DNA of 64,000 bases from Acinetobacter albensis (GTDB lineage Bacteria; Pseudomonadota; Gammaproteobacteria; Pseudomonadales; Moraxellaceae): the NCBI RefSeq assembly GCF_900095025.1, contig NZ_FMBK01000007.1, positions 62,001-126,000 on the forward strand, in the 5' to 3' direction. Under the pieces are notes generated by a model, which saw nothing but the letters and a program-made list of their open reading frames with translations, was not told the DNA's origin and did not search any database. The position numbers were made by a program, and so were the translations under genes. Each line of letters starts with the position of its first letter. Positions within the stretch are counted from its first letter, which is position 1. Below, one piece after another: positions 5,466 to 7,048 of the stretch.

Positions 5466-6146
5466 CTAAGGACGAATACTCTGGATTGGTACATTCATGC
5501 TCATGTCTAAATTTGCCGTCGTATTTCGTTCTTGGTTATACATGGTGGCATTAAAAGTTGCAATTTTACGCATGGTCATAGGATCATTAATTTTGAGCTG
5601 AGGTGCAAACTGGTGTAATACATGTAAATCCACTGCTTCATTAAATTCAAAAAAAACAGGGCCATTAAAAGAAATTTTTACAGGAACAGCATAGGTTTTT
5701 TTGAGCTGAAAAGGAACCTCAAGCTGAATAGGGATATCCAAACTTAGTGGGAATTGGGGTAAAAATTTATTTTGATATACCAGATCTGTCGTTGCACGAA
5801 GCGGCAAGGTCTGGTCTATTTTGACTATTGTTTGATAATTCACAGATACTGAAATAGGCGTTTCAACTTCAAACTGCAAATTTGCTAAATATCTGCCTGT
5901 TAATGGTAATAATAACTGATGATTTAAGTGAATTTGGGTATCTAAAATTCCCACTGATTGAGTTTCTAAATAATTTCCGACATGAATTTTAGTAGGTAAT
6001 GAATCGGGTAATTCTATTCGTGCCCGATCAGCTGAAAGTTGCATTGAAGCTATAATATTCAAATATAACCAAAAAAGAATGGAAACCAACAAAACTACTG
6101 CGCTAAAGCTTAACAATAAACTTTTGAAAGAACGAAATATCCACAT
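5466..6146 (-). CDS. Membrane-anchored hypothetical protein, repeat-protein pair member A
   Basis: I do not recognise a family. The 226-residue protein has one N-terminal transmembrane segment (about residues 10-32) and no lipobox or cleavage site, so it is probably anchored in the inner membrane with a periplasmic body. The body alternates short beta-prone stretches rich in Pro, Ile, Leu and Val (for example LPLTGRYLANLQFEVETPISVS). It lies 11 bases after a gene with the same architecture and similar phrases such as IKVDQxLP, which points to an old tandem duplication and one transcript. Function is unknown; a structural or lipid-facing envelope role is only a guess. Confidence 0.75.
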   Translation of the reverse strand: MWIFRSFKSLLLSFSAVVLLVSILFWLYLNIIASMQLSADRARIELPDSLPTKIHVGNYLETQSVGILDTQIHLNHQLLLPLTGRYLANLQFEVETPISVSVNYQTIVKIDQTLPLRATTDLVYQNKFLPQFPLSLDIPIQLEVPFQLKKTYAVPVKISFNGPVFFEFNEAVDLHVLHQFAPQLKINDPMTMRKIATFNATMYNQERNTTANLDMSMNVPIQSIRP

Positions 6147-6157
6147 GATCTTTCTTC

Positions 6158-6868
6158 CTAATTTTTCTTTTGCTCTAAAATAGTCTGGCGGCTTAAACGC
6201 AAATTATGTAAGGGAATTTTTAATTCACCCTGCTCAATTTTTATAGGCAAAGTATTTTGTACATCGACTGAAGCTTTTAAAGCCGTTTTAATAGGTACAT
6301 TTAAATGACCTTGAATGGGAATATTTGTTTTTAAGGTTGTATGTAACGGTATATTCAAATTTTCCTTAAGTACTGCTTTTACTGGAGCATCAAACTTCAA
6401 ATGTACATTTTGTTCTAAAGGTACATTCATATGAATAGGAACATCTAACTTGATGGGAATAGTTCCTTTTAAAGGAAGTGTAATATCCTTACCTAATATG
6501 CGAACTTTAACTTGGGTATTGATAGGTAAATTTTGATCTACCTTTAATATTTCTTGAATAGGGATCGTCGTTTTAATTGGAACTTGATTATCAAAATACA
6601 CATGAGGTGTTAATGTTTGCGTGAGAGGAATATTCAGATTTTCATGAATTGGAATTTCTGCATTAACTCGTCCAGTCACATCAACATTTAAAGCATCATG
6701 AATTTGAACTTTCGCCTGTAAGGGTTCTTGTAAATCGATATTTACAGCTTGGTTTTCTAGTGGAATGTAAATATTAAAATGCTTAAACACCCAAATGGCG
6801 ATAACTACACCACAGAGTGAAGCAAACACAATAAATGCTAATCCACTTAGCATGTGTTTTACTTGCAA
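6158..6868 (-). CDS. Membrane-anchored repeat protein, pair member B
   Basis: Unrecognised 236-residue protein with one N-terminal transmembrane helix (about residues 8-30). It is followed by a strikingly regular body in which units like IPIxxxLNVPI recur: IPIHENLNIPL, VPIKTTIPI, VPIHMNVPL, IPLHTTLKTNIPI and HLNVPIKTALK. The alternation of hydrophobic and polar residues with repeated Pro suggests a long amphipathic beta structure in the periplasm. It is the first gene of a two-gene minus-strand unit with its shorter homologue. Cysteine is nearly absent outside the membrane segment. Low-complexity evolution could produce such repeats, but the frame is intact and paired. Confidence 0.75.
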   Translation of the reverse strand: MQVKHMLSGLAFIVFASLCGVVIAIWVFKHFNIYIPLENQAVNIDLQEPLQAKVQIHDALNVDVTGRVNAEIPIHENLNIPLTQTLTPHVYFDNQVPIKTTIPIQEILKVDQNLPINTQVKVRILGKDITLPLKGTIPIKLDVPIHMNVPLEQNVHLKFDAPVKAVLKENLNIPLHTTLKTNIPIQGHLNVPIKTALKASVDVQNTLPIKIEQGELKIPLHNLRLSRQTILEQKKN

Positions 6869-7020: not shown

Positions 7021-7048
7021 AAAAAGAGCCTCATTTGAGGCCCTTTTT
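7021..7048 (-). terminator. Terminator of the GapDH gene
   Basis: GCCTCA-TT-TGAGGC stem flanked by A and T runs, 15 bases beyond the GapDH stop codon. On the minus strand it ends in a T-rich tract. Confidence 0.85.

Follow-up and report, generated by a model that had tools for sequence, protein, structure and literature searches.

Two adjacent genes in a 64,000-nucleotide stretch of an Acinetobacter albensis genome (hereafter the window) each very probably encode one giant amphipathic beta-hairpin. Our best explanation of the whole, which we regard as possible and short of probable, is that the two hairpins would be anchored in the inner membrane and that their aliphatic faces would act as a lipid bridge across the periplasm. 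Of 175 Acinetobacter genomes, about 100 have the pair, in most cases located between gap and obg. The computational observations, with the evidence for each given in the sections below, are the paralogy of the two proteins, their alternation, the length of the arms, the register of the hairpin, purifying selection, and co-inheritance.

Two Intact Paralogous Genes Downstream of gap

The original prediction of two adjacent minus-strand genes is borne out by two intact ORFs, of which B precedes A in the direction of transcription with 11 bp between them. A stem-loop lies upstream of the pair.

Gene B, 6158-6868, minus strand: ORF of 236 aa with a TTG start; predicted membrane-anchored giant amphipathic beta-hairpin
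Gene A, 5466-6146, minus strand: ORF of 226 aa with an ATG start; paralog of B with the same architecture
Terminator-like stem-loop, 7021..7048, minus strand: 12 pairs followed by a T-rich tail; a pattern match only

Upstream of B is gap, a glyceraldehyde-3-phosphate dehydrogenase gene of 485 aa, and the stem-loop sits 3' of it as a putative terminator that sets gap apart from the B-A unit. Downstream of A are a convergent NmrA-like gene, an HxlR-type regulator, and the GTPase gene obg/cgtA, beyond which lies proB (named by eye). The assembly containing the window totals 3.05 Mb in 30 contigs. Among ten relatives with flanks, gap is upstream in all eight whose contigs extend that far, with one additional gene between gap and B-A in L071, and obg-proB is downstream of the pair in eight of ten. 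The exceptions are L067, which has other genes there, and L071, which is without obg in the fetched stretch.

A and B are full-length homologs (profile-profile probability 99.8%, E = 1.4e-28, 227 columns) that share 20.9% identity. Alignments of B and A drew on 52 and 51 of 70 loci, respectively, each plus the window (53 B and 52 A members). Selection on the intact pair, previously thought likely, is strong and purifying: median dN/dS is 0.041 over 84 pairs of B sequences and 0.035 over 61 pairs of A sequences, both calculated from pairs with dS of 0.1 to 1.0.

Unbroken Alternation and the Placement of Prolines

In the predicted structure of both proteins, an N-terminal helix is followed by two long arms that are joined at an apex.

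B N-terminal transmembrane helix, residues 2-30, 6779..6865, minus strand: AF2 helix, block pLDDT 66-81
B first beta arm, residues 42-124, 6497..6745, minus strand: from phase segmentation; 83 residues in one alternation phase
B hairpin apex, L125-G126, 6491..6496, minus strand: single phase flip; AF2 strand limits are symmetric about it
B second beta arm, residues 128-212, 6233..6487, minus strand: phase segmentation gives 125-212 as one segment
A N-terminal transmembrane helix, residues 3-31, 6054..6140, minus strand: AF2 helix
A first beta arm, residues 41-119, 5790..6026, minus strand: one phase over 41-202; AF2 strand 74-119
A apex loop, residues 120-132, 5751..5789, minus strand: between AF2 strands 74-119 and 133-178
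A second beta arm, residues 133-207, 5526..5750, minus strand: AF2 strand 133-178; phase held to 202 or 207

The AF2 helices at residues 3-31 of A and 2-30 of B agree with the N-terminal transmembrane anchor that the two proteins had been proposed to share. The helix of B is probably an inner-membrane anchor, where we infer both the membrane and the side.

The cumulative parity sum of B traces a clean V, with one phase held from approximately residue 42 as far as 124 and the other as far as 212, the single flip between them falling at L125-G126. G126 is invariant in 53 of 53 alignment rows. Hydrophobic residues occupy 29 of 42 in-phase versus 2 of 41 out-of-phase positions in arm 1, and 32 of 44 versus 1 of 44 in arm 2 (61 of 86 and 3 of 85 when both arms are pooled). 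A keeps a single phase from residue 41 to 202, which fits an apex loop that differs by one residue from that of B in the A-B alignment. Of the window's 57 ORFs that do not overlap and reach 120 aa, A and B take the first two ranks for density of [IVLMF]P[IVLMF] and for strict alternation. Alternation counts of 39 in B and 48 in A were never attained in 2000 shuffles of each body, in keeping with the alternating Pro/Ile/Leu/Val strands first described for both proteins. The body of B has 15 IPI-like triplets, a number reached in 0 of 2000 shuffles, and that of A has seven, reached in 2 of 2000. The original prediction also read repeated phrases in B; these look less like copies of a sequence unit than like one unbroken alternation in which polar-side prolines are often 6 or 12 residues apart.

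Among 297 ORFs scored in spans of 80 residues, 35 of 35 family members reach at least 0.55 and all but one of the others score at most 0.475; the outlier outside the family, with a score of 0.65, is a low-complexity ORF of L213. This background is preferred over an earlier one based on phase segments of 209 ORFs, because the latter included one A ortholog and had two unrelated ORFs whose segments were long (130 and 99 residues) but far weaker in contrast. Ordinary meander sheets, with their short strands and varied turns, should lose phase over such a length. Low-complexity ORFs at L213:83-1258 and in L212 (genomes G889 and G821) contain short repeats that imitate the profile of the family or its alternation score, and they are probably not relatives.

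Prolines are placed with similar regularity. The nine prolines of the second arm of B, from residue 132 to 208, are all at even-numbered positions, and of the 16 conserved proline columns in the two arms, 15 are on the polar face and one, P88, is not. A has 13 columns in which proline is the commonest residue, and 12 of them are on the polar face. Conservation in B is 0.92 for the aliphatic face versus 0.70 for the non-proline polar face. In a hairpin with a short loop and hydrophobic flanks, polar-face positions are non-hydrogen-bonded and their backbone points outward. Prolines on the polar face would be tolerated by the hairpin at no cost and would keep the sheet from growing at either edge; because they would occupy outward-pointing positions, edge-to-edge aggregation should be blocked.

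Register of the Predicted Hairpins

AF2 models of both proteins are of low confidence (mean pLDDT of 55.7 for B and 50.2 for A; pTM of 0.20 and 0.23, respectively). In B, strands 59-86 and 93-124 are paired with 165-192 and 127-158, respectively, and their limits are symmetric (59+192=86+165=93+158=124+127=251). In A, strand 74-119 is paired with 133-178 (74+178=119+133=252). The original prediction had looked to structure prediction to decide between beta structure and a disordered chain. Long paired strands were predicted, but the models do not fully dismiss disorder, as pLDDT is below 50 at 103 of 236 residues in B and 120 of 226 in A; the covariation and charge tests argue against it.

Covariation was calculated with the A proteins of L147 and L167 left out and identical rows collapsed, leaving 70 distinct B and 68 distinct A rows. 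When MI-APC was averaged over residue pairs with i+j=s, s=251 in B and s=252 in A each ranked 1 of 61, and the same two sums each ranked 1 of 61 for complementarity of facing charges. At these registers, charge pairs whose mean product exceeds 0.15 in magnitude are complementary in 10 of 10 cases in B and in 10 of 10 in A. AF2 may itself have used covariation, so the models and the covariation are not independent lines of evidence. The apex-side part of each arm ranks 1 in both MI and charge in A and B. In the middle part, residues 59-86 of B rank 2 (MI) and 4 (charge) of 61 and residues 61-86 of A rank 6 and 1, and the membrane-proximal part of A ranks 1 in MI and 11 in charge. For the membrane-proximal residues 40-58 of B, no register stands out (rank 5 of 39 by MI and 13 by charge), and charge-pair support in B starts at residue 53.

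Distant B orthologs were outside both the AF2 models and the covariation, and their register was set by the LG apex motif alone. Those of G706, G576, G696, and G567 are 26.3-35.6% identical to B of the window (27.5-35.6% for the first three) and have arms of 76-88 residues. Facing charged pairs are complementary in 10 of 10 cases in G706, 4 of 5 in G576, and 9 of 10 in G696, or 23 of 25 when the three are pooled; B of G567, which is 86% identical to that of G696, has 10 of 11. Summed over the four orthologs, offset 0 has a value of -30, versus a mean of 0.7 and a standard deviation of 6.1 for 61 offsets. For B of the window together with those of G706, G576, and G696, 29 of 32 pairs are complementary, a result as low being found in 0 of 5000 sign permutations (p = 0.0002). 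Taken alone, the counts for B of the window (6 of 7, p = 0.07), A of the window (4 of 4, p = 0.07), and B of G576 (4 of 5, p = 0.08) fall short of significance. Among A orthologs, the register of G696 and that of G567 each rank 1 of 61; in the A orthologs of G706 and G576 the register is not confirmed (ranks 20 and 5 of 61), and in the single-copy protein of G070 the register at the LG motif ranks only 41 of 61.

A hairpin is the most likely structure because the phase flip, the symmetric AF2 registers, the covariation ranks, and the charge complementarity all point to it. Alternation, AF2 strands, covariation, and charge pairing likewise agree with the long amphipathic beta structure that was originally proposed.

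Occurrence and Co-inheritance

The pair is broadly distributed in Acinetobacter, and the restriction to one strain that would have spoken against the original prediction was not found. In a first set of 58 genomes, the 18 genomes with A, out of 37 from Acinetobacter, are also the 18 with B. In a genus-wide profile search, 103 of 175 genomes have a match; three of these (G394, G408, and G452) have remnants only, and two (G352 and G467) have one match each rather than the usual two. Because the remaining 72 of 175 genomes are without a match, the pair is dispensable in the genus. The decaying remnants are just downstream of gap, at L282, L283, and L284 (genomes G452, G394, and G408, respectively). 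In G394, B is reduced to its first ∼35 residues and A to its last ∼86, and there are stop codons in the visible pieces of B in G452 and G408.

The genes are paired, as first described. At 70 of 70 named Acinetobacter loci, which include those of A. baylyi, A. baumannii, A. pittii, A. ursingii, and A. haemolyticus, B has A directly after it. A is without a full-length ORF at two of them (L147 and L167), and at the 68 others the ORFs are spaced by -4 to +13 bp, with one exception of -32 bp that is due to an alternative start. The pair is missing as a unit in other Acinetobacter genomes; in G013, gap adjoins the NmrA gene and the remaining order is kept, a clean loss of the pair. Given their co-inheritance, the short spacing or overlap of their ORFs, and their joint loss, A and B likely share a role.

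Outside the genus, homologs are rare. Matches were found in 12 of 293 genomes of the order, including the window's own and some near the threshold, and in 8 of 398 genomes of the phylum, again including the window's own, most of them weak, antisense, or low-complexity matches. Four genomes of the order (G706, G576, G696, and G567) have B-A tandems, and a single copy is present in G057, G042, G493, and G638 of the order and in G070 of the same class. Single-copy homologs in other families of the order, at L062:5589-6485, L204:6805-7692, and L208:6871-7683, seem to have about three coherent arms of 65-93 residues and are perhaps a three-stranded variant. The plain hairpin may be limited to proteins of the B-A type, because these single-copy proteins seem three-armed. 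Two repetitive arrangements were also observed: a tandem array of six similar genes (405-490 aa) whose N-termini closely resemble one another at L214:1076-10229 (genome G650), and an ORF of 2423 residues, with cadherin-like or Ig-like repeats by eye, that is convergent to B-A in G576 (L205:8649-15920).

Possible Functions of the Pair

The lipid bridge that we tentatively favor would work as follows. The N-terminal helix would anchor each protein in the inner membrane. From there, arm 1 (∼85 residues) would run up through the periplasm to the apex turn and arm 2 (∼85 residues) would run back, forming a ribbon with one continuously aliphatic face (I/V/L) and one polar face that carries cross-strand ion pairs and the conserved prolines. 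The aliphatic face would then provide a slide or bridge for phospholipids or other hydrophobic molecules between the membranes, as AsmA-like and Lpt systems do, with a different architecture. At ∼0.33 nm per residue, the ribbon would be 24-28 nm long; arms of 83-88 residues correspond to 27-29 nm and the part supported by charge pairs to ∼24 nm. The Gram-negative periplasm is ∼20-25 nm wide. A bridge is suggested by the combination of a ribbon length near the width of the periplasm, an unbroken aliphatic face, and an anchor in the inner membrane. We infer that A and B reach the outer membrane and that they work together. A more specific version, in which the aligned aliphatic faces of an A/B pair make up a hydrophobic slide or tunnel that spans the entire periplasm and moves lipids or other hydrophobic molecules from membrane to membrane, would be a previously undescribed trans-envelope architecture and is in our judgment rather unlikely.

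Contact covariation between A and B (69 pairs) reached z = 3.9 at an antiparallel sum of 253, which is below the 95% point of the null at 4.65; maxima of 60 row-permuted pairings averaged 3.59, with their 95% point at this value. Half-sampling left the sum of 253 high (rank 1 in 17 of 30 cases), but just one of the two arm combinations backed it and a structurally senseless register scored z = 5.5. On account of these results and of the row-permuted null, this signal was dropped as evidence.

Gene neighborhoods offer weak hints of a link to lipids. A DUF1302 gene (Pfam E = 1.8e-122 and 5.8e-120) immediately precedes B-A in G696 and G567. DUF1302 is described as a predicted outer-membrane barrel family tied to efflux of apolar monoterpenes (PMC6394551, in part), and the family has been linked to use of Tween 20 (PMC10866462, in part). 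In G070, the distant single-copy homolog (L210:7122-8093) adjoins a gene whose product has a diacylglycerol kinase catalytic domain (E = 3.5e-20) and lies opposite a pair of genes for LptF/LptG permeases (E = 2.2e-39 and 2e-42). The absence of YdbH, detailed below, is a hint of the same weak kind. The Acinetobacter neighbors gap, obg, and proB give no hint of lipids. In the two related genomes with DUF1302, L206:5113-8740 and L207:6458-10546 are possible operons with the DUF1302 gene directly before B-A; a small DUF4282 gene is ahead of DUF1302 in L207, and a DUF445 gene and an unnamed gene of ∼250 aa are close by at both loci. In G706, the DUF445 gene immediately precedes B-A, and in G696 and G567 it is nearby. 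We rejected DUF445 as a partner because it is present in 175 of 175 Acinetobacter genomes, with or without the pair, and so does not discriminate.

The main rival of the lipid bridge is a plain tether or ruler, which we consider unlikely. The aliphatic faces of A and B would pack against each other as a four-stranded dry beta-sandwich rod that links, or sets the spacing of, the inner membrane and a partner in the outer membrane or cell wall, without transport of lipids. Such a rod would bury the aliphatic face, which must be buried somehow, and A is a collinear paralog of B that is paired with it in presence and in loss; arm length is also kept at 76-88 residues in B orthologs only 26-36% identical to B of the window. 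However, covariation between A and B does not exceed the null, no outer-membrane or peptidoglycan-binding domain was recognised, and a ruler needs no uninterrupted aliphatic face.

It is improbable that the hairpins instead join edge to edge into an oligomeric tube, a beta-barrel conduit through the periplasm built like the hairpins of pore proteins. An aliphatic interior would suit a hydrophobic cargo, and many of the top Foldseek matches of the B model are long-hairpin pore proteins (lysenin and aerolysin), with a phage collar/tail protein at rank 1. But these matches rest on a model of low confidence, 0 of 198 are at E ≤ 0.001 (best E = 8.0e-03), and by geometry the conserved polar-parity prolines on both arms would break the hydrogen bonds between edges. 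Equally low in probability is a periplasmic chaperone or holdase, whose aliphatic ribbon would bind hydrophobic clients such as unfolded outer-membrane proteins; one continuous aliphatic face and membrane anchoring are consistent with this role, but very long conserved arms seem unnecessary for it and there is no match to a chaperone family.

Relationship to Known Families and Envelope Systems

The original prediction recognised no family for either protein, and searches of Pfam, NCBIfam, and PDB as well as profile comparisons gave no match to a well-known one. A and B reach no Pfam or NCBIfam cut-off and have no significant sequence match in PDB. A PDB search with a mixed B-type profile had 0 matches, and searches with the A and B profiles had five and one matches at E ≤ 1, all unrelated-looking and at E of 0.61 or worse. 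Seven distant family members matched 0 Pfam families at E ≤ 0.01. PF09172 (vitellogenin open beta-sheet) scored 14.3 bits in B against a cut-off of 23.7. A left-handed beta-helix of hexapeptide repeats was considered on the basis of prolines that are often 6 apart and one match to an NCBIfam acyltransferase model (E = 0.11). It was set aside by reasoning, as nearly every second residue of A and B is aliphatic, which the pattern of a left-handed beta-helix disallows. A search of open-access literature, made without locus tags, found no paper on the A-B pair.

Distant membership in a known beta family (YnbE-like lipoproteins, LEA_2/WHy, or AsmA-like proteins) is very improbable and largely refuted by profile comparisons, since the sub-threshold matches to PF13617 in 9 of 53 B members and to PF03168 in 14 of 53 are below curated cut-offs at best and profile-profile probabilities are 5.9% for YnbE and 0.3% for LEA_2.

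YnbE looked promising by eye and from sub-threshold Pfam matches. Residues 145-170 of B, a stretch of 26, resemble the YnbE strand, and B is the only PF13617-like stretch in its genome at E ≤ 10. PF13617 has a best E of 1.7e-4 among B members and scores 18.7 bits for B of the window, 21.7 for the best relative, and 22.7 in the genome search, below the cut-off of 25.8. The low profile-profile probability, from eight YnbE proteins (all above the cut-off in our search) against 53 B members, ruled it out as an identity for B, and a widened B profile gave 6.5%. B also differs from YnbE in having a transmembrane helix, and it may lack a lipobox, none being evident by eye: its Cys19 sits in ASLC with Leu at -1, a context unlike the lipobox motif. 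B is about three times longer than the profiled YnbE proteins and has no YdbH partner in its genome; YdbH (PF11739) was found in 0 of 37 Acinetobacter genomes searched, the window's own included. YnbE is described as an outer-membrane lipoprotein that interacts with YdbH (PMC12977461, in part).

The LEA_2/WHy domain was also rejected. It is a small beta-rich domain, and in this respect, together with the weak matches in B members (best E = 3.7e-4), it is like B. However, the best score is 21.4 bits against a cut-off of 25.4, the low profile-profile probability comes from 20 LEA_2 proteins (from 30 loci; <260 aa, spanning the locus center, and containing NP) against B, and LEA_2 has no match in the window's genome at E ≤ 0.01.

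Models of the AsmA superfamily have no match at E ≤ 1 to A or B of the window and none at E ≤ 0.01 among the 53 B and 52 A members. AsmA-like bridge proteins (TamB, YhdP, and YdbH) are portrayed as membrane-anchored, with a hydrophobic beta-groove that is thought to span the periplasm (PMC12977461 and PMC12802150, both in part). A and B would resemble them in having a predicted helix anchor and a hydrophobic beta ribbon and may act like an AsmA-type bridge. But AsmA proteins are built of repeated beta-groove units, whereas A and B, at 226-236 aa, are each predicted to be a single hairpin. Lpt is a chain of several short-stranded units and in this differs from A and B, which have no sequence match to it. 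The likeness to Lpt is in the continuous hydrophobic surface, which in the LptC-LptA-LptD bridge is a groove that runs from the inner to the outer membrane (PMC12977461, in part) and in A and B would be the aliphatic face of the predicted hairpin. We rate the A/B family and architecture as categorically new, for a structure that is computational and with the proviso that such proteins may be described in literature beyond open access. The bridge function, if it is one, would be a variant of known trans-envelope hydrophobic bridges.

Implications for Transport across the Envelope

If the predicted structure is right, the hairpins of A and B would be among the longest continuous ones known to have been predicted, with a length that matches the periplasm. 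The passage of phospholipids across the Gram-negative periplasm is a subject of ongoing work (PMC12977461, in part). If true, the A/B slide, with its two proteins of ∼230 residues, would offer a minimal alternative to the AsmA-like and Lpt systems, in a genus with YdbH in 0 of 37 genomes searched. As a two-gene system that is naturally dispensable and that occurs in the laboratory species A. baylyi, the pair would then make a simple bridge directly testable.
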